Assembly (NCBI GenBank): GCA_029260165.1
Contig: JAJDDT010000052.1
Coordinates: forward strand, 1-64,000
Reading direction: 5' to 3'
DNA: 64,000 bases
Source: Phycisphaerae bacterium
GTDB taxonomy: Bacteria > Planctomycetota > Phycisphaerae > UBA1845
Shown here: positions 2,564 to 31,127 of the stretch, piece by piece
Position numbering within the stretch: the first letter of the stretch is position 1
Layout of the letters: the number at the start of each line of letters is the position of its first letter
Translations under genes and position numbers: made by a program
Notes under the pieces: model-generated
What the model was told of the DNA's origin: nothing
What the model saw: the letters and a program-made list of their open reading frames with translations, nothing else
Database searches by the model: none

Positions 2564-3952
2564 CTAGTTCAGGGACCTTGGTATCCATTGGCCGTGGCCG
2601 TTTTGGCCGACGAAATTGTAGTTTTTGACGATTTGGGTTCCACGTGAGAAGGTTTGTTCGGCGAATCCTGCGAGACTCCAACCCTGGAACGGGCTCCAGT
2701 CGCAGTTGGTTTCCATTTTTCGCCAATCGACCTTTTTGGTTTTGGTTGGGTGGATGATGGCGATGTCGGCGTCTGAGCCGACGCGGATGGTGCCTTTTTT
2801 CGGGAACATGCCCATGAGTTTGGCGGGGTTGGTGGAGCATTTGTCGACGAACTGATTGATGGTGATGCGACGCTTGCGGACGCCATGGGTGTAGACGGTG
2901 GGCAGAAGGGTTTCGAGACCCGGCATGCCCATCGGGATTTTGGTGAAGTCGCCTTTCCACATAGATTTCTGCTTCGTGGTGAAGGTGCAGGTGTCGGTGG
3001 AGACGTTGCAGACCTCGCCATCCTGAATTCCCTTCCACAGTCGGTTGATGTCTTTCGGGCGCTTGAGTTGCGGGCAGGTGGCGTACATGTGGCCATCTTT
3101 TTTCCTGAAATTTGAATCGTCGAGAACGAGGTATTGGGCGCAGGTTTCTGCGACGATGTCGACACCGTCGGCTTGTGCTTTTTTGATGAGGTCTGCGCCT
3201 TCTCCGGTGGACATGTGGACGACGAACGTCTTGCCGCCGGTGACTCTTGTCCAGTGGATGACGCGTTCGATGGCTTCTGCTTCGACGAAGTTTGGTCGGG
3301 TGATGGTGTGGAGGTAGGCGCCGTGTTTTTTCATATCGGGTTTGTTGTGGTGTCGATCGATGAGCAGGTCCAGGACGCGTGATGACTCAGCGTGGACGAG
3401 GAGCATGCCGCCGTGCTGTTTGAGGGTTTCGAGGGCGGCGTACATGGCTGCGTCGTCGGACTGCCAGCCCTGGCTCTCATAGATCATGAATTGCTTGAAG
3501 GTCGGGTACCCTTTGTCGATGAATTTTTTGATGTCCCTGCCGTGCTTTTCCCATTTGGTGATGGCAACGTGAAAGGCGTAGTCGATGCAGGCTTTTCCTT
3601 CGGCTTTTGCGTGCCAGTTGTCGACGGCTTGCTGGAGCGATTCGTTGCCGTAGGGGATGGCGAAATCGATGAGACTTGTGACACCACCGCAGGCGGCTGC
3701 CCTGGTTCCGGAGTCGTAGTCGTCGGAGGAGGTTGTTCCGCAGAATGGGAGGGCGAGGTGGACGTGGACGTCGATGCCCCCCGGGATGACGTATCTGCCT
3801 TTGGCGTCGATGATTTTTGCGTCGTTTTTGTTTTCGGCGGTGAGGTTTTTGGCGATGGCGACGACCTTTTCGCCACGGATGCCGACGTCGGTGAGGGTGG
3901 TGTCGTTGGCGGTTACGACCTTTCCGCCTTTGATGATGGTGTCGAGTTTCAT
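2564..3952 (-). CDS. hydA: Dihydropyrimidinase/hydantoinase-family amidohydrolase
   Basis: The 462-residue product belongs to the cyclic amidohydrolases that open dihydropyrimidine or hydantoin rings using a two-zinc centre. The expected metal ligands are visible: DVHVH near residue 61, the lysine of FKQFMIYES (the carboxylated Lys position) near 153, histidines in LLVHAES and FVVHMST, and the aspartate in STDTC. Length is normal for the family. The ATG is preceded by GGAGG at a 7-nt spacing, which supports this start. There is no neighbouring pyrimidine-degradation gene, so the substrate (dihydrouracil, a hydantoin, or another cyclic imide) is not fixed by context. The family is secure; pathway assignment is an inference. 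Confidence 0.9.
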   Translation of the reverse strand: MKLDTIIKGGKVVTANDTTLTDVGIRGEKVVAIAKNLTAENKNDAKIIDAKGRYVIPGGIDVHVHLALPFCGTTSSDDYDSGTRAAACGGVTSLIDFAIPYGNESLQQAVDNWHAKAEGKACIDYAFHVAITKWEKHGRDIKKFIDKGYPTFKQFMIYESQGWQSDDAAMYAALETLKQHGGMLLVHAESSRVLDLLIDRHHNKPDMKKHGAYLHTITRPNFVEAEAIERVIHWTRVTGGKTFVVHMSTGEGADLIKKAQADGVDIVAETCAQYLVLDDSNFRKKDGHMYATCPQLKRPKDINRLWKGIQDGEVCNVSTDTCTFTTKQKSMWKGDFTKIPMGMPGLETLLPTVYTHGVRKRRITINQFVDKCSTNPAKLMGMFPKKGTIRVGSDADIAIIHPTKTKKVDWRKMETNCDWSPFQGWSLAGFAEQTFSRGTQIVKNYNFVGQNGHGQWIPRSLN

Positions 3953-13934: not shown

Positions 13935-13959
13935 GTAGCGTCACCCCTCGTGGGTGACG
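13935..13959 (+). repeat. REP1 element (left half of inverted pair)
   Basis: This element has GTAG, then arms CGTCACCC and GGGTGACG around a CTCGT loop. It is paired with an inverted copy at 13990-14014, giving a BIME-like arrangement between fliM and the next gene. Confidence 0.85.
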
Positions 13960-13989
13960 AAAGCACAAGACGACGTCAGCCTGCGATCG

Positions 13990-14014
13990 CGCCGCCCACA
14001 AGGGGCGACGCTAC
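13990..14014 (-). repeat. REP1 element (right half of inverted pair)
   Basis: On the minus strand it reads GTAG, then arms CGTCGCCC and GGGCGGCG around CTTGT. Compared with the standard arm pair, the fourth base of the left arm is unchanged while changes on both sides keep the stem paired (one G-T pair). Confidence 0.83.
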
Positions 14015-23188: not shown

Positions 23189-24064
23189 ATGATCCCCAAA
23201 GAACTGCTCAAGAAAATACGACGCATCGAAATCCGCACGTCGCACATGGTCAACGACGTGCTCGCCGGTCAATACCACTCCGCCTTCAAGGGTCGCGGAA
23301 TGGAATTCGAGGAGGTCCGCACCTACCAACCAGGCGACGACGTCCGAACCATCGAATGGAACGTCTCCGCACGCTACGGACATCCCTTCGTTAAAATCTT
23401 CAAGGAAGAACGCGAACTCACCGTCATGCTGCTCGTCGATCTCTCACGATCGCACAGCTTCGGAACCGCCGACCAACTCAAACGCGAAGTCGCCGCCGAA
23501 ATCTGCGCAACCCTCGCCTTCTCCGCCATCCGAAACAACGACAACATCGGACTGATCACCTTCACCGACCAAATCGAACAGTTCGTTCCACCAAAGAAAG
23601 GCTCACGACACGTCCTCCGTATCATCCGCGACCTGCTCTACTTCGAACCCGAAGGCCAACACACCGACATAAGCCTCGCCTTCCAGCACCTCGACCGCGT
23701 GACCACCCGAAAATGCGTCGTCTTCGTCGTCAGCGATTTCCAGGACACCAACTACGAACAACCCATGCGCATCGCCAGAAGACGACACGACGTCATCCCC
23801 ATCACCATCACCGATCCACGCGAGGTCAATCTGCCAAACGTGGGCATCATCGAACTTGTCGATGCAGAAACCGGAAAAACCGTCGTCGTCGACACCGCCA
23901 ACAAACGACTCCGCGAACAATTCACCACCGCGGCCATCACCACCGCCGACACCCGCACCGAACAGTTCCGCCGATCCAACATCGACGCCATCGACGTCAC
24001 CGCAGGCCAATCCTTCATCGACCCGCTCCAAAAATTCTTCCGAAAGAGAAAAGCCAAACGATGA
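23189..24064 (+). CDS. DUF58 (VWA-like) protein
   Basis: The 291-residue cytoplasmic protein has the DUF58 signature GRGMEFEEVRTYQPGDDVRTIEWNVSARYG near residue 32 and a VWA-like fold with VDLSRSHSFG in the position of the metal-binding loop. Such proteins are encoded directly after MoxR in Bat (Bacteroides aerotolerance) clusters and are thought to link the ATPase to the membrane VWA proteins. Its stop overlaps the ATG of the next reading frame (ATGA, 24061-24064), which points to translational coupling. Confidence 0.92.
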   Translation: MIPKELLKKIRRIEIRTSHMVNDVLAGQYHSAFKGRGMEFEEVRTYQPGDDVRTIEWNVSARYGHPFVKIFKEERELTVMLLVDLSRSHSFGTADQLKREVAAEICATLAFSAIRNNDNIGLITFTDQIEQFVPPKKGSRHVLRIIRDLLYFEPEGQHTDISLAFQHLDRVTTRKCVVFVVSDFQDTNYEQPMRIARRRHDVIPITITDPREVNLPNVGIIELVDAETGKTVVVDTANKRLREQFTTAAITTADTRTEQFRRSNIDAIDVTAGQSFIDPLQKFFRKRKAKR

Positions 24065-25173
24065 CAAGCAGGCCAACCCATTTCGCCACATCGGGTGGCC
24101 CACGTCTTCAGACGTGGGGAACAGACGGTAGGGCAGGTGCTCGCACCTGCCGTCACCATCAAATGTTCTTCATTCCAACGCTGCTCCTCACGCTATGCAC
24201 CCTCCCCGCCTGCAACAACGCCCTGCCCCAACCCGACGACAACAACCCCATCACCAAAACAACAACCAAAGGCCCCACCACCCTCACCATCACCACCGAC
24301 AAATCCCAAATGTCCGTCGCCGAAAGACTCGACCTCACCCTCACTATCACCACCGAACCCAACGTTACCATCCATCCGCCCGCCCTCGGAAACGACGTTG
24401 GACCATTCACCATCCACCACCAAAGCCAATTCAAAAAACGACCCGAACCCGACGACAATAACAAATCTGTCTACACACAAACCCACACCCTCGAAACCTT
24501 CACCGCCGACACCCACACCATCCCACCTGTCACCGTCGAATTCACCGACAACCGCGACCCCGACAACCCCGTCCAATCCTCCATCTCATCCGTCCCCTTC
24601 GACATCGAAGTCACCGCACCCACAGAAGCCGACACCGACCCGACCCAATTCCGCGACGTCAAGAACCCCGTGGACCTTCCCACGACCATCAACCTCACAA
24701 TCCTCTACTATGTGCTCGCAGGCCTCGCCATCGCCGCCATCCTCATTTTCGCTCTTTACAAACTCATCAACCGCAAGCGCAAACCCCACCTCGCCCCAAC
24801 CATCCCCGCACACGAGTGGGCCTTCAAACAACTCCGCCTACTCAACAACGCCTGCCTCGTCGAACAAAACCAGACCCACGAGTTCTACTTCCGACTCAGC
24901 ATGATCCTTCGCCAATACATCGAACGACGCTTCGATTTAAACGCCCCCGAACGCACCACCGAAGAATTCCTCGAAGAAATGCGAACCACCGACAAGCTCT
25001 CCCCACAACACAAACGCACCCTCGAACAATTCCTCGCTGCCTGTGACAGGGTCAAGTACGCCCTCTACGAACCACCATCCGACGAAATCGAAAGCGCCTT
25101 CACGGCCGCCGAGGATTTCGTCACCCAAACCATCCCACAACCCACCGACCGATCATCAAGGGAAGCCGCATGA
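24061..25173 (+). CDS. DUF4381-like membrane lipoprotein of the Bat cluster
   Basis: The frame is open from ATG 24061, which overlaps the DUF58 stop. Residues 1-34 are encoded by REP3 and REP2 repeats. They are followed by a lipoprotein-type signal (MFFIPTLLLTLCTLPAC), so ATG 24163 is the alternative start (336 instead of 370 residues). No Shine-Dalgarno sequence precedes 24163. A beta-rich extracytoplasmic domain (TTLTITTDKSQMSVAERLDLTLTI...) comes next, then a transmembrane segment (ILYYVLAGLAIAAILIFALY). The cytoplasmic helical tail (HEWAFKQLRLLNNAC...FYFRLSMILRQYIERRF) resembles DUF4381 proteins, which occur between DUF58 and BatA in these operons. Its stop overlaps the batA start (ATGA). 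The codons are extremely C-rich. Confidence 0.8.
   Translation: MTSRPTHFATSGGPRLQTWGTDGRAGARTCRHHQMFFIPTLLLTLCTLPACNNALPQPDDNNPITKTTTKGPTTLTITTDKSQMSVAERLDLTLTITTEPNVTIHPPALGNDVGPFTIHHQSQFKKRPEPDDNNKSVYTQTHTLETFTADTHTIPPVTVEFTDNRDPDNPVQSSISSVPFDIEVTAPTEADTDPTQFRDVKNPVDLPTTINLTILYYVLAGLAIAAILIFALYKLINRKRKPHLAPTIPAHEWAFKQLRLLNNACLVEQNQTHEFYFRLSMILRQYIERRFDLNAPERTTEEFLEEMRTTDKLSPQHKRTLEQFLAACDRVKYALYEPPSDEIESAFTAAEDFVTQTIPQPTDRSSREAA
24093..24119 (+). repeat. REP3 unit inside 5' end of a bat gene
   Basis: It has GGGTGGCCCA, stem ACGTC/GACGT, a TTCA loop and TGGGG. It lies in frame within the open reading frame that starts at 24061, 8 nt before a REP2 element. Confidence 0.83.
24128..24151 (+). 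repeat. REP2 element inside 5' end of a bat gene
   Basis: GTAG is followed by perfect arms GGCAGGTG/CACCTGCC with loop CTCG. The flank ACCATCAAA after the hairpin is shared with the copy at 28337, so the repeated unit is longer than the hairpin. Confidence 0.87.
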
Positions 25174-26264
25174 CCCTCCACGCACCATGGATGCTCACCC
25201 TCCTCGTCCTTCTGCCGCTCATCTGGTGGCAATGGCTGCGACGTCACCCACACGCTGCCATCCGCTTCTCCTCCATCGATTGGCTCAAACGCAACAACCA
25301 ATCCCTGCGAGTCTCCGCCCGTATCCTCCTCCCCCTGCTCCGCACCCTCGCCGTCGCCATCCTCATCCTCTGCATCGCCCGACCGCAAAAGGGCAACGAA
25401 GAAACCCGTATCTACTCCGAAGGCATCGCCATCCAGCTCATCGTCGACCGCTCCAGCAGCATGCTCGCCGAAGATTTTACCAACAATCAGGGACAACCCA
25501 TCAACCGGCTCGCCGTTGTCAAATCCGTCGTCGAGGAATTCGTCCTGGGCTCAGACGACCTCAAAGGCAGGCCCGACGACCTCGTCGGACTCGTCTCCTT
25601 CGCCGGTTTCGCCGACAGCAAATGCCCCCTCACTCTCGACCACGAATTCCTCGCAAAAACCCTCCGGCAAACAAACATCGTCCAACCCGAAGAAGGCCGC
25701 GAAGAGGATGGAACCGCCATCGGAGACGCACTCGCCCTCGCCGTCGAAAAACTCCGCGACCTCGACCGCAGACGCGATGTCTCAGAAGCCAACCGCATCA
25801 AGAGCAGAATCGCCATCCTGCTCACCGACGGCGAAAACAACCGCGGTGACATCGAACCCGAGAAAGCCGCCGAAATCGCCCAGGCTTTCGACATCAAGGT
25901 CTACACCATCGGCGCGGGAACCGACGGATACGCAAACATGCCCGTCCGCGACGTGTTCGGCTCCGTCTTCAGAAGACAAGCCCGCGTCTTCATCGACGAG
26001 GAAACCCTCAAGAGCATCGCATCCGTCACCGGAGGCCAATACTTCCGCGCCAAAGACTCCGCCTCTCTCAAAAACATCTACAAGGAAATCAACGAACTCG
26101 AAAAAACCAAAACCGAAGAAAAACGTTTCATGCAATACACCGAACTCGCCACCCATGCCGTCACCCTCGACGGTTTCAAACTACCACCCCTGCTCGCCAT
26201 CGCGTTATCATTGCTCGCAACAGAAATTCTGCTCACCAACACCGCACTAAGAAAGATACCCTGA
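25170..26264 (+). CDS. batA: BatA-type VWA membrane protein
   Basis: The 364-residue inner-membrane protein has an N-terminal hairpin of two hydrophobic segments (residues 5-22 and 50-70), a VWA domain with metal-binding motif DRSSS at residues 93-97, and a C-terminal transmembrane segment. Later VWA motifs are visible in DDLVGLVSFAG and ILLTDGENNRGD. It begins in an ATGA overlap with the preceding gene, with AAGGGAAG upstream. MoxR-DUF58-BatA-BatB order is the hallmark of Bat clusters, whose role in envelope stress or maturation of complexes is only partly understood. Confidence 0.92.
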   Translation: MTLHAPWMLTLLVLLPLIWWQWLRRHPHAAIRFSSIDWLKRNNQSLRVSARILLPLLRTLAVAILILCIARPQKGNEETRIYSEGIAIQLIVDRSSSMLAEDFTNNQGQPINRLAVVKSVVEEFVLGSDDLKGRPDDLVGLVSFAGFADSKCPLTLDHEFLAKTLRQTNIVQPEEGREEDGTAIGDALALAVEKLRDLDRRRDVSEANRIKSRIAILLTDGENNRGDIEPEKAAEIAQAFDIKVYTIGAGTDGYANMPVRDVFGSVFRRQARVFIDEETLKSIASVTGGQYFRAKDSASLKNIYKEINELEKTKTEEKRFMQYTELATHAVTLDGFKLPPLLAIALSLLATEILLTNTALRKIP

Positions 26265-26277
26265 CACCCGAAACACC

Positions 26278-27279
26278 ATGAACCTCGCATTCGACCATCC
26301 CAACCTCCTCCACCTCCTCTGGCTCACGCCCCTCCTCGCGGGTCTCTACCTCCACGGATTTGCCCAAAAACGAAAAGCACTCCACCGCTTCGCCACCCTC
26401 AACCTGCTCAACACTCTCGTCCCGCGCGTCAGCCACACCCGCCAAAAAATCAGGTCCATCTGCGTCATCCTCGCAACCATCGCCCTCATTTTCGCCCTCA
26501 CCGGACCGCGATGGGGAAAACACTGGGAAAAACTCGAACGCAAAGGCATCGACATCATCTTCGTCCTCGACGTCTCCAATTCCATGCTCGCCGAAGACGT
26601 CGCTCCCTCAAGACTCGAACGCGCCAAGCTCGACGTCGCCGACCTCATCACCATCCTCCCAGGCGACCGCGTCGGACTCGTCACCTTCGCCGGACAAGCC
26701 GCCGTCGCCTGCCCGCTCACCATCAACTACAGCGCCTTCCGCATCGCCCTCCAAAACGTCACCACCCGATCATCACAAAGAGGCGGAACACAAATCGGAG
26801 ACGCCATCCGACTCGCCGCCGCCAGCTTCACCGACAAAGTCAAAGACCACAAAGCCATCATCGTCATCTCAGACGGCGAAGAAACCGACGACAGCTACGC
26901 CGCCCAGGCCGCACACATCGCCTTCGACGAAAAAGGCATCCGCCTGTTCACCATTGGCACCGGCGACGCCCGGCAAGGCGGACGCATCCCCATCGTCCAA
27001 AACAACCAACGCCTCTACCTCACCCACCAAGGCCGGGAAATCTGGACCAAACTCCATCCCCAGCTCCTTCAGGAAATTGCCTTCTCCGCAGACGGCGGAT
27101 ACTTCGCACACACCGACCTTCGAGAGGTCTACGACCGCATCGCCGACAAAATCCAGCAACGAACCTACGAGTCACAACGAAAGGAACTCCGCTACCCACG
27201 ATTCCAATGGTTCGCCGCATTGGCACTATCATTACTCATGATCGAAACCCTGATGACCGACCGAAAGACAACATCATGA
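26278..27279 (+). CDS. batB: BatB-type VWA membrane protein
   Basis: The 333-residue paralogue of BatA has the same layout: hydrophobic segments near 8-25 and 58-76, a VWA metal site DVSNS at residues 98-102, ILPGDRVGLVTFAGQAA, IVISDGEETDD and a C-terminal membrane segment. It starts 13 nt after batA and ends in an ATGA overlap with the next frame. It is intact and carries no repeat insertion. Confidence 0.92.
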   Translation: MNLAFDHPNLLHLLWLTPLLAGLYLHGFAQKRKALHRFATLNLLNTLVPRVSHTRQKIRSICVILATIALIFALTGPRWGKHWEKLERKGIDIIFVLDVSNSMLAEDVAPSRLERAKLDVADLITILPGDRVGLVTFAGQAAVACPLTINYSAFRIALQNVTTRSSQRGGTQIGDAIRLAAASFTDKVKDHKAIIVISDGEETDDSYAAQAAHIAFDEKGIRLFTIGTGDARQGGRIPIVQNNQRLYLTHQGREIWTKLHPQLLQEIAFSADGGYFAHTDLREVYDRIADKIQQRTYESQRKELRYPRFQWFAALALSLLMIETLMTDRKTTS

Positions 27280-28286
27280 AATGCAGGAAAGACCTCGAAA
27301 ACGTCGCGACCAATGTAGCGTCACCCCGTCATTCTTCTGTAGCGTCACCCCTTGTGGGTGACGAGAAGGCAACAAGACCGCCGGTCAACCAAACCCAACA
27401 TGAGGCAATGAATGTAGGGCAGGTCGCGACCTGCCGTATTCAAACACTCATCGCGATACTCGCGCTGACAATCTCCATCCACCCGGCCATCGCCCAATCC
27501 CCAAACCCACACACCCTCGTCAAACAAGCCAACCAACTCTACAAAACCCAAGACTACCAATCCGCCCTCAATTCCTACAACCAAGCCAACCTCGCCAAAC
27601 CCGATTCCCCGGAAATCGCCTACAACCGCGCACTCGCCCATTACAAACTCAACCAACTCACACAGGCCAACAACCTCCTCAACCAGGCCCTTTCCACCCG
27701 CGACAAATCCCTCGAAGCCAAAATCAAGTACAACCTCGGAAATGTCGCCTACGCCCAGGCCCTGGAAAACCAGGAAAACCCCAAGCAAGCCATCAACCAC
27801 CTCAAAACCGCCATCACCCGCTACCGCGACGCTCGCGACATCAACCCGACCGACGAGGACGCCCTCGCCAACATCAACTCCGCCCAGTCCCTCATCAAAA
27901 GACTCATCCAGCAACAAAACCAGGAACAGCAGCAAGACCAAAACAAAGACCAGGAACAAGACCAAAAAGACGAGCAGGAACAGGAACAATCAAAAGACGG
28001 CGACCAGGAGAAACAGGATCAAAAACAACAAGACCAACAACAGGAAAACCAGGACCAGCAAAAAGACCAGGAAGGAAAAAAGCAGGAACAAAGCGACCAA
28101 CAAAACCAGCAGTCATCAGAAGAACAGGATCAGCCACCCCAACAAGCAGAACCCCGCGAAGTCAAAATGACCCCCGAACAGGCCGAAAGACTCCTCCAGG
28201 CTGTCCGCGACAAGGAACGAAATCGCCAAGACGAAAAAACCAGACTCAGACGCGTCGGCCGTCGCCCGGTCCTCAAGGATTGGTAA
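27276..28286 (+). CDS. batC: BatC-type TPR protein with Gln/Glu/Asp-rich tail
   Basis: From ATG 27276, which overlaps the batB stop (ATGA), the frame gives 336 residues. Residues 1-44 are encoded largely by REP1 repeats. A Met at 27408 then begins a signal peptide (MNVGQVATCRIQTLIAILALTISIHPAIA) whose first residues come from a REP2 element. If translation starts at 27408 the product has 292 residues. The mature part has about three tetratricopeptide repeats (LYKTQDYQSALNSYNQANLAKP...). A roughly 90-residue stretch of Gln, Asp, Glu and Lys follows and a basic end (RLRRVGRRPVLKDW). TPR proteins of this type sit between BatB and BatD and are thought to be periplasmic partners. Confidence 0.83.
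   Translation: MKCRKDLENVATNVASPRHSSVASPLVGDEKATRPPVNQTQHEAMNVGQVATCRIQTLIAILALTISIHPAIAQSPNPHTLVKQANQLYKTQDYQSALNSYNQANLAKPDSPEIAYNRALAHYKLNQLTQANNLLNQALSTRDKSLEAKIKYNLGNVAYAQALENQENPKQAINHLKTAITRYRDARDINPTDEDALANINSAQSLIKRLIQQQNQEQQQDQNKDQEQDQKDEQEQEQSKDGDQEKQDQKQQDQQQENQDQQKDQEGKKQEQSDQQNQQSSEEQDQPPQQAEPREVKMTPEQAERLLQAVRDKERNRQDEKTRLRRVGRRPVLKDW
27315..27363 (+). repeat. REP1 composite: truncated unit plus full unit
   Basis: A truncated REP1 (GTAGCGTCACCCC then GTCATTCTTCT, no right arm) is followed directly by a full REP1 at 27339-27363. The same composite, with four differences, recurs at 30198-30246. Both are read in the same phase by the enclosing frames. Confidence 0.85.
27414..27435 (+). 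repeat. REP2 variant inside the batC signal peptide
   Basis: GTAG is followed by arms GGCAGGT/ACCTGCC with loop CGCG, two bases shorter than the other copies. It encodes the residues Val-Gly-Gln-Val-Ala-Thr-Cys of the signal-peptide amino-terminal region. Confidence 0.8.
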
Positions 28287-28287
28287 A

Positions 28288-30159
28288 ATGCGACAAACCA
28301 TGACCAGGACGACAAGATCAGGCAACAGAGCAAACGGTAGGGCAGGTGCTCGCGCCTGCCGCGACCATCAAACGCCATCAACGAAACACCCCCAATGTAG
28401 CGCCACCCCTTGTGTGTGGCGGGAACACCAGACGATACCAACAAGCTCCAACCGCCACATGTGCGTCAAAACCGCATTGCTCATCGCCACAATGCTCACC
28501 GCCTGCACCCAGGCAGCCAATGTCTCCTTCACCATCTCGAAAAAGAAATCCTACGTCGGCGTCCCCGTCCAGCTCCAGATCAGCATCGAAAACGCAGAAG
28601 ACCACACCCCACCATCCTTCCCCGACATCCCCAACGCCGACGTCCGCACGGCCCCCCCCTCATCCTCACACATGACCACCATCGTCAATGGCCAAATGGA
28701 ACGAAAATCAACGACAACCTACACCTCCCAGCCACAAACCATCACCGTCAAAAAATCCGACAACAACGACCTCCTCTCCGTCGAACTCACAGGACAGAAA
28801 AACTCCGTCTACATCGGCGAATCCATCAACGTCACACTCGAAATCCGGCTCAAACAATTCAACAAAAACCGCGTCAAACTCGACTTCAGAGATATGTGGT
28901 CCACCATCAACCAAAACGCCAGCACATGGGGACAGTTCGCAAGCCTCGTCAACACAAGAAACAACAACATCAAAGTCCGCACCACAAGACGCAACACCAA
29001 CGGACAACAACACACCTACTTCGTCTATTCGGTCGAAAACCAGTTCTGGCCCGAACGACCCGGAAAACTCGAAGGTGGAAACATCACCATCGTCGCCAAC
29101 TACCCCCTGAGCGTCTCACGAAACCGCTTCTCCATCCTGAGAAGACTCTCCATCGACCGCGCCAAACCCGTCTCCGCCACCGTCAAAGACCCCGACATCA
29201 CCGTCAAATCACCACCCACCCAAAACCAACCCGCCATCTTCCGTAGCGCCGTCGGAAACTACACCATCGCAACCACCGCAACACCCACCGTCGCCAACGT
29301 CGGCGACCCCATCACCATCACCCTGAGCATCACCGGCAATGGCCGACTAGACCTCCTCCAACCCCCACCCCTCACCGATCAACCAAGCCTCACCAACGAC
29401 TTCCGAGTCCCCGACGAACCGCTCGCCGGAGTCGTCAATGGACAAACCAAAACCTTCACCCAATCCATCCGCGCCACCCGCGACGACATCACCGAAATCC
29501 CGCCCATCAAATTCGCCTACTTTGATCCTGACATCGAACAATACGTCACCATACAATCCGACCCCATCCCCATCTCCATCAAACAACAAACCCAACTCCC
29601 CGTCACCCAAATGGTCGAAGGATCACTCACCCCCTCCATCACCAACCTCACCGCAAGAACCGACGGACTTCTCGCCAACATCGACGACCCAGGCCTCCTG
29701 CTAACCACCCAAACCGTCACCATCACCCCGACCACACTCACCATCCTCGGCAGCCTCCCCATCCTCTACACCGCCACCCTCCTCTTCCAGTCCAACCGCC
29801 GAAAACTCAAAAACAACATCGCCCTCGCCCGCAGAAAATCCGCCAAACGAATCGCCAACCACAAACTCGCTAACGCAATCAACACCACCGACCCAACCGC
29901 CGCAGCCAACCTCGCCGCAAGCACCCTCACCACCTACATCGCCGACCGCTGCAATCTCCCCGCCGCAGGCCTCACCCGCACCGACGCCGTCACCCATCTC
30001 CAAAACCGATTCGTGACCGAATCCCTCATCACCGACATCGACCAGCTATTGGAAGAATGCGAACACATCCAGTACGCCCCCTCCACTTCCGCCGCCCAAA
30101 ACATCACCACCCGCACCCAACAATGCATCACCCGCCTCGAAAAGGAATACCTCAAATGA
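28288..30159 (+). CDS. batD: BatD-like (oxygen tolerance) membrane protein
   Basis: The frame starts at ATG 28288, which has AAGGA at an 8-nt spacing, just after batC. Residues 1-57 cover REP2 and REP1 repeats. The signal peptide (MCVKTALLIATMLTACTQA) begins at residue 58 (ATG 28459, no Shine-Dalgarno sequence). The mature protein has three or more beta-sandwich repeats typical of BatD (VSFTISKKKSYVGVPVQLQISIENAED; VELTGQKNSVYIGESINVTLEI; YTIATTATPTVANVGDPITITLSITG). A transmembrane segment lies near residue 485 (TILGSLPILYTATLLF), then a helical cytoplasmic tail. Total 623 residues, normal for the family. Composition is very rich in C-ending codons and Thr, Asn and Pro. Confidence 0.87.
   Translation: MRQTMTRTTRSGNRANGRAGARACRDHQTPSTKHPQCSATPCVWREHQTIPTSSNRHMCVKTALLIATMLTACTQAANVSFTISKKKSYVGVPVQLQISIENAEDHTPPSFPDIPNADVRTAPPSSSHMTTIVNGQMERKSTTTYTSQPQTITVKKSDNNDLLSVELTGQKNSVYIGESINVTLEIRLKQFNKNRVKLDFRDMWSTINQNASTWGQFASLVNTRNNNIKVRTTRRNTNGQQHTYFVYSVENQFWPERPGKLEGGNITIVANYPLSVSRNRFSILRRLSIDRAKPVSATVKDPDITVKSPPTQNQPAIFRSAVGNYTIATTATPTVANVGDPITITLSITGNGRLDLLQPPPLTDQPSLTNDFRVPDEPLAGVVNGQTKTFTQSIRATRDDITEIPPIKFAYFDPDIEQYVTIQSDPIPISIKQQTQLPVTQMVEGSLTPSITNLTARTDGLLANIDDPGLLLTTQTVTITPTTLTILGSLPILYTATLLFQSNRRKLKNNIALARRKSAKRIANHKLANAINTTDPTAAANLAASTLTTYIADRCNLPAAGLTRTDAVTHLQNRFVTESLITDIDQLLEECEHIQYAPSTSAAQNITTRTQQCITRLEKEYLK
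28337..28360 (+). repeat. REP2 element inside the batD 5' region
   Basis: GTAG is followed by arms GGCAGGTG/CGCCTGCC (one G-T pair) and loop CTCG. The translated phase is the same as in the copy at 24128 (Gly-Arg-Ala-Gly-Ala-Arg). Confidence 0.86.
28397..28421 (+). repeat. REP1 variant inside the batD 5' region
   Basis: GTAG is followed by arms CGCCACCC/GTGTGGCG around CTTGT. The third base of the left arm and its partner both differ from the standard copy (C-G in place of T-A), keeping the stem; one mismatch lies near the loop. Confidence 0.8.
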
Positions 30160-31127
30160 CGCCATCAACAATACATCCAGGATCGCACCAACCCAATGTC
30201 GCGCCACCCCGTCACTCTTCTGTAGCGTCACCCCTTGTGGGTGACGAGAAAACCAACCACGCCAATCAAAGCCAACCCGTAGGGCCTGGGTGCCCCACGT
30301 CTTTAGACGTGGGGTATGGATTCGCACGACCAACGACCGTCATCCAATCAATCATCATCCTCACGCTCTTCACCACCCACCTGTCCGCCAACACCCCCGA
30401 CCCCCAACAAACCCTCGCCAACGCACTCACCCAATTCGACAACGCCACCGAACTGATGCGCACCGACCCCGACAAAGCCCAAACCGCCTTCAACAACGCC
30501 GCCAGGGAATTCCAATCCCTCATCGACAACGGACACCGAAACACCCACCTCTACTACAACCTCGCAAACACCCACCTCAGACTCGGGCAACTCGGACCCG
30601 CCATCGCCAACTACCGCCGCGCCCTCAAGATCAACCCCGCCAACGAACGCGCAAAAGCCAACCTCAACTTCACAAGAACACTCACGCGAGATCAGTTCAA
30701 AACCACAGGAACCCACGCACTAAAACAAACACTCCTCTTCTGGCACTACAACACCACCGCCCAATCCCGACGCAACTTCGCCATCATCCTCTACGCCTCA
30801 TTCTGGCTCATCCTCGCCACCAAAACCATCCGCCCCAAAACCCGCATCACCTACCCCGCCACCATCACGGGACTCGTCACCCTCGCACTCGCCATCTCAC
30901 TTTCCATCTCCATCCCAAACCAGTCACGACTCACCGGCGGCGTCATCACCGCAAACCAGGTCACCGTCCGAAAGGGCAATGGGCAATCCTACGCACCGCA
31001 ATTCGATCAGCCACTCCACGAAGGCACCGAATTCGCCATCCTCGAACAACGCAGCAATTGGCTCCACATCCAACTCCCCGACAACAACACCGGCTGGATC
31101 CAGTCAAAACACACCGAACTCTTCTGA
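30156..31127 (+). CDS. batE: BatE-type TPR/SH3 membrane protein
   Basis: ATG 30156 overlaps the batD stop and has AAGGA at a 9-nt spacing. It opens a frame of 323 residues whose first 51 codons run through REP1 and REP3 repeats. The likely signal segment follows (ARPTTVIQSIIILTLFTTHLSA). The only canonical closer start is a GTG at 30309, inside the REP3 hairpin. The mature protein has TPR motifs (LYYNLANTHLRLGQLGPAIANYRRALKINPANERA), two membrane segments (RRNFAIILYASFWLIL and TITGLVTLALAISLSI), and a C-terminal SH3-like domain (VTVRKGNGQSYAPQF...WLHIQLPDNNTGWIQ). This order is typical of BatE. It is the last gene of the operon. Confidence 0.85.
   Translation: MTPSTIHPGSHQPNVAPPRHSSVASPLVGDEKTNHANQSQPVGPGCPTSLDVGYGFARPTTVIQSIIILTLFTTHLSANTPDPQQTLANALTQFDNATELMRTDPDKAQTAFNNAAREFQSLIDNGHRNTHLYYNLANTHLRLGQLGPAIANYRRALKINPANERAKANLNFTRTLTRDQFKTTGTHALKQTLLFWHYNTTAQSRRNFAIILYASFWLILATKTIRPKTRITYPATITGLVTLALAISLSISIPNQSRLTGGVITANQVTVRKGNGQSYAPQFDQPLHEGTEFAILEQRSNWLHIQLPDNNTGWIQSKHTELF
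30198..30246 (+). repeat. REP1 composite: truncated unit plus full unit
   Basis: A second copy of the composite at 27315-27363. The truncated part begins GTCG in place of GTAG and has CGCCACCCC; the full REP1 is at 30222-30246. It is read in the same phase as the 27315 copy. Confidence 0.85.
30288..30314 (+). repeat. REP3 unit inside the batE 5' region
   Basis: It has GGGTGCCCCA, stem ACGTC/GACGT, a TTTA loop and GGGG. It is preceded by GTAGGGCCT (30279-30287), which looks like the foot of a REP2 element joined to REP3. Confidence 0.82.

Follow-up and report, generated by a model that had tools for sequence, protein, structure and literature searches.

Short palindromic REP elements stand between the coupled ATG and the hydrophobic core of all four signal-peptide genes (DUF4381, batC, batD and batE) of a bat operon in a Phycisphaerae bacterium, and on the evidence of the sequence these GTAG-type REPs have probably been captured in frame as extensions of the signal-peptide n-region, with their translation deduced and their frame kept by purifying selection. 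The elements share position, frame and openness, are absent from batA and batB, and differ between sister species at the same places; this preserved reading-through suggests genuine translation of the REPs, as signal-peptide tails that can be thrown away. The window, that is the whole stretch of 64,000 nucleotides that was analysed, corresponds to contig C67 of a genome of 4.43 Mb (G000). Pfam names the neighbouring genes as DUF58, BatA, BatB, TPR proteins and BatD, and gives for the DUF4381-like gene a match (E 2.7e-5) that lies under the curated cut-off. The operon and its repeats are arranged as follows.

24061..25173, + strand: DUF4381-like gene, from an ATG overlapping the upstream DUF58 stop (ATGA)
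24094..24118, + strand: REP3 in the DUF4381 leader, read GGPRLQTWG
24128..24153, + strand: REP2 in the DUF4381 leader, read GRAGARTCR
25170..26264, + strand: batA, membrane-anchored VWA protein; control, 5′ junction without REP
26278..27279, + strand: batB, membrane-anchored VWA protein; control, 5′ junction without REP
27276..28286, + strand: batC, TPR protein, from an ATG overlapping the batB stop
27313..27367, + strand: REP1 composite (truncated plus full) in the batC leader, covering 27315-27363
27414..27437, + strand: REP2 variant GTAGGGCAGGTCGCGACCTGCCGT in the batC leader, read VGQVATCR and adjoining the h-region
28288..30159, + strand: batD, ATG one base past the batC stop, with a Shine-Dalgarno-like AAGGA
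28337..28362, + strand: REP2 in the batD leader, read GRAGARACR
28397..28423, + strand: degenerate REP1 in the batD leader, read CSATPCVWREH
30156..31127, + strand: batE, TPR plus SH3-like, ATG overlapping the batD stop, with a Shine-Dalgarno-like AAGGA
30196..30250, + strand: REP1 composite in the batE leader, covering 30198-30246
30289..30313, + strand: REP3 in the batE leader, read GCPTSLDVG

The leaders of the four signal-peptide genes run for 34-61 codons, all in frame and stop-free: 34 codons in the DUF4381-like gene, ahead of a lipoprotein-like core MFFIPTLLLTLCTLPAC, 54 in batC (core IQTLIAILALTISIHPAIAQ), 57 in batD (followed by MCVKTALLIATMLTACTQA) and 61 in batE (core VIQSIIILTLFTTHLSA), with cores and signal peptides judged by a simple hydropathy rule and not by a trained predictor. 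The products of batA and batB, which have uncleaved membrane anchors, show short leaders and no REP, both here and in the sister species G001. In G001, REPs are found at the same four places, largely belonging to other families and in other arrangements, and the four leaders, of 40-67 codons, are again in frame and open. Taken over both species, 8/8 leaders are free of stops in the gene frame, versus 3/16 in the other frames (Fisher p 2e-4, for eight leaders that are related by descent and hence not fully independent).

This openness extends to about 40 Phycisphaerales genomes, in which leaders of 60-400 nt ahead of the same signal-peptide genes, some of the long ones possibly natural n-regions without repeats, are open in 35 of 39 gene frames versus 20 of 78 other frames (p 3e-11); with the two focal species removed, 27 of 31 are open in the gene frame (p 4e-8). 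In relatives, the ATG or GTG start of DUF4381, batC, batD and batE mostly overlaps or adjoins the stop of the preceding gene, and the signal peptide follows at once. Most relatives have bat junctions without repeats, and in repeat-free Phycisphaerales the bat gene starts at −4 or −1. At the batA junctions of 30 genomes the leaders measure 8-84 nt, and no palindrome was flagged in those over 60 nt. Elsewhere, a REP3 dimer lies in frame in batE of another genus (G071), palindromes occupy the same leader position in batC of G035 and of G006, and the batE leader of G028 carries a three-fold tandem repeat. As a side observation, unrelated repeats of the AAGRLRSRFGS tandem, FVIRNSSFVIRN and EGTKGRRDEG types occur at bat junctions in other genera (L316 in G028, L285 in G053 and L278 in G020), in frame ahead of the hydrophobic core.

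The original prediction started from two sites, 27315-27363 and 30198-30246, where a truncated and a full REP1 are joined; both are confirmed, and the differences between them number three, not about four (46/49 identical). Aligned as a wider unit, the batC and batE composites are 52/55 identical and have the flanking ends AAT/GAGAA in common. They are translated in the same phase, as had been claimed, both giving SSVASPLVGDEK, and the peptide of the composite, RHSSVASPLVGDEK, is identical in the two translations. REP2 does read as GRAGAR in the DUF4381-like gene and in batD, and this is not its general phase, the batC copy being read in another.

The shared phase of REP1 is ordinary, a consequence of its single stop-free sense frame. 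Six-frame translation of the consensus leaves one sense frame open (VASPLVGDE); of the other two, one starts with the TAG contained in the GTAG tag (the second frame) and one closes with a TGA from GGGTGA (the third). Because these two frames are closed, an intact sense REP1 in an open gene reads VASPLVG unless its stop codons are mutated, and the second phase is open in the batD copy only because the TGA is mutated there. The suggestion that only one phase is tolerated thus holds, trivially, for REP1 and fails for the other families: REP2 has two open sense frames, both in use, and REP3 is read in three phases across the window species, G001 and G071. Among 24 REP1 dimer readings scanned on both strands, 22 are stop-free in the VASPLVG frame, genic or not, and coding compatibility is therefore intrinsic to the element. 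Phase memory or gene-to-gene copying was rejected as the cause of the agreement, the other REP1 frames being closed and composites elsewhere about as similar. A trivial source of phase agreement, one open frame, can in this way be told apart from a real constraint, a frame held at overlapping starts.

The reading of the leaders as translated extensions has to be set against the choice of start codon. The repeats could instead lie in untranslated spacers, with later in-frame starts in use and the upstream open frame a product of chance and over-long ORF calling. In the window, the DUF4381-like gene (24163), batC and batD (28459) offer in-frame ATGs, inside or beyond their repeats, that would yield normal signal peptides; a coding-potential scan detects no coding signal in the leaders and finds it past the repeats only (from 27444 in batC); Di Nocera et al. 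2013 (PMC3733652) deemed many NH2-terminal REPs extragenic on account of such later starts; and no significant frame preference exists genome-wide. Set against these points are the frames themselves, open in every one of the eight leaders of two species, the use of the coupled start in relatives, and the pairing with the anti-Shine-Dalgarno sequence, which averages −4.7 kcal/mol at the coupled ATG versus −0.9 kcal/mol at the first post-repeat start and reaches −5.8 kcal/mol or better at five of the eight coupled ATGs. For batD and batE in both species, and for batC of G001, the coupled ATG has the stronger Shine-Dalgarno pairing; the pairing is weak at both starts of the window's batC and is better at the later ATG in DUF4381 of G001. 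In the window's batE and in batC of G001 the coupled ATG is the sole ATG before the core, the repeats being followed by none and containing just GTG codons. On balance, untranslated spacers appear a rather unlikely explanation.

Two further explanations bear on what the repeats do and where they came from. Hairpins acting on the bat mRNA, through stability or cistron coupling, with an open frame that merely carries coupled ribosomes through, would account for the stable hairpins, for REPs at every signal-peptide-gene junction of the operon in two species, and for an open frame combined with a Shine-Dalgarno sequence at the coupled ATG. Most relatives, however, are repeat-free at those junctions, the hairpin families differ from one sister species to the other, and the batA and batB junctions have none, so that we regard a purely mRNA-level role as quite improbable. 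Even less credible, and in our view very improbable, is the copying of the composite from batC to batE or the reverse, by gene conversion or transposition with the phase carried along. The two copies do agree in their truncated-plus-full structure, in sequence and in flanks, but they belong to a subfamily of about eight, with at least six further composite-like copies in the genome, of which an intergenic one on contig C51 (51/55 identical) and one on contig C20 (50/55) match the batC copy almost as well as batE does. REP1 is, moreover, already present in batE of G001, so that the batE copy may be ancestral, and the transfer of inserts together with their phase, one of the two alternatives originally offered, is not needed when REP1 has a single open frame.

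The tag, the hairpin, the copy number and the distribution all identify REP1 and REP2 as GTAG-tagged REPs; the REP3 hairpins form a related family. In the genome the REP1 core occurs in 153 copies (at most 2 mismatches), REP2 in 54 and REP3 in 58, with 0 matches to the reversed control pattern in each case, and the repeats are thus no product of chance; named records with REP1 come mostly from Phycisphaerae or Phycisphaerales. REP1 and REP2 each have an unpaired GTAG and an 8-bp stem (hairpin z −5.8 and −3.4), whereas REP3 has a hairpin without the GTAG tag and begins GGTGGCCCAC. As in GTAG REPs generally, REP1 and REP2 combine high copy number with a location mainly in co-directional or convergent spacers; the 130 REP1 neighbourhoods sampled include 65 co-directional, 36 convergent and 25 divergent ones. 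REP1 also has a cognate RAYT gene between inverted copies: a Y1_Tnp match at G000:C98:61427-61768 has inverted REP1 on either side (L290, positions 1398-2000). This gene, which holds one in-frame TAG and may be decayed, is probably what mobilises REP1. A truncated Y1_Tnp fragment was also noticed between inverted REP3 copies (L293, G000:C40:38386-38562). REP3 may accordingly be suggested to have a mobiliser of its own despite the missing GTAG tag.

Across the genome, REPs are overwhelmingly intergenic. About 0.97 Mb was read, in stretches around about 240 REP copies (for REP1, 130 of about 153, at a slightly different threshold), with genes called by a simple coding-potential caller. REPs score as non-coding in such calling, which lost all intragenic copies when run with 240-nt flanks and regained two mid-gene cases when run by segments. 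At 103 co-directional REP junctions, tested for read-through of the REP from a start codon close to the preceding stop, no significant frame preference is seen: the gene frame is read through in 18 cases and the two others in 11 and 12. Over the REP itself the frames are open in 72 versus 58 and 51 cases. Neither count supports a general rule by which REPs close to genes hold the frame. The non-random reading phase anticipated for copies throughout the genome is thus not found, being near random at junctions, and the idea that insertion is constrained by translation stands for the bat operon and falls for the genome's junctions. Much the same applies to a shared position of the enclosing genes relative to signal peptides, which is evident in the four bat-operon genes; signal-peptide-like genes with an upstream REP do not stand out genome-wide, with read-through in only 8 of 35. 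One bat-like arrangement was noticed outside the bat operon (L074 at 3501, G000:C43:5282), where REP1 lies in the VASPLVGDE phase between a stop-adjacent start and a lipoprotein-like core ILLLVLICSVIIPITGC; a Met that follows the repeat could serve as the start instead.

Two copies are true mid-gene insertions, in a permease-like gene (C52:38999-40312) and in a membrane protein gene (C50:37614-39398).

L083, about 9305 (G000:C52:39569): REP1 dimer in the permease-like gene
L079, about 3445-3524 (G000:C50): REP1 dimer in the membrane protein gene

Both are head-to-head REP1 dimers read VASPLVG...PPTRGDAT within a hydrophilic stretch, and the G001 orthologues of both genes align on both flanks and lack the insert. 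In-frame insertion where relatives lack the insert, as is characteristic of Rickettsia palindromic elements (RPEs), is therefore seen both in these two dimers and in the bat leaders when compared with the short leaders of relatives. A head-to-head REP1 dimer open in the same frame as the mid-gene inserts also lies in a spacer of the window, at 13935-14014.

How the bat operon came to differ from the rest of the genome may be pictured as follows. In most of the genome REPs lie between genes, where frame is of no consequence. In the packed bat operon the ATGs overlap or abut the previous stops, which leaves no neutral spacer, and the surviving elements would be those directly behind the start of the four genes with cleavable or lipoprotein-type signal peptides only, in an open frame. 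Translation initiated at the coupled ATG would run on across the REPs to the hydrophobic core, the extension would presumably be discarded along with the signal peptide, and selection after insertion would maintain the frame. The RAYT gene with its flanking inverted REP1 copies is a pointer to the mobilising enzyme.

The arrangement is best read as a variant of known protein-coding palindromes. Earlier work on GTAG-tagged REPs with RAYT transposases (PMC3733652) already placed some of them within ORFs or at NH2 termini and recorded GTAG repeats from Planctomycetes; the elements here resemble them in the GTAG and 8-bp stem, the high copy number, the mostly intergenic location, the head-to-head dimers and the RAYT gene with inverted REP1. 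They depart from those systems in the in-frame TAG of the REP1-flanked RAYT gene and in REP3, which lacks GTAG, and, where many NH2-terminal copies were treated as extragenic in that work, four consecutive signal-peptide genes in two species here keep frame. RPEs (Ogata et al. 2000, 2002) are likewise palindromic repeats found in frame in unrelated protein genes, a likeness that follows the descriptions in PMC10969869 and PMC2996958 and implies no kinship; as described there, they are about 150 bp long and sit at sites along many genes, whereas the bat-operon repeats measure about 25-80 bp and lie only behind start codons. For YPO1552, an enterobacterial RU-2 element is reported within the signal peptide (Delihas 2007, PMC2759123), a single case involving a different element; here the pattern spans four genes in two species and draws on several families of repeats. 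A literature search found nothing on REPs in signal-peptide n-regions in Planctomycetes. REPs in ORFs and a repeat in a signal peptide being already known, what is new is that the pattern recurs across four adjacent genes in two species, together with the evidence of frame keeping.

A removable signal-peptide tail would be about the most forgiving entry point for palindromes, and the operon, with different elements at the same spots in sister species, offers a place to watch selfish palindromes become protein. For annotation, REP-bearing N-termini should not automatically be taken as wrong starts. A tentative and somewhat doubtful generalisation is that the coupled junctions of Phycisphaerales make the n-region of Sec signal peptides a general landing pad for unrelated repeat families, captured there in frame time and again and translated; if so, long, fast-changing and lineage-specific signal-peptide tails would be expected, with hairpins possibly tuning cistron coupling. 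As a minor observation on the operon itself, G001 (C32, L270) carries an extra gene of ~1.3 kb between DUF58 and DUF4381 that by eye is peptidyl-prolyl isomerase-like.
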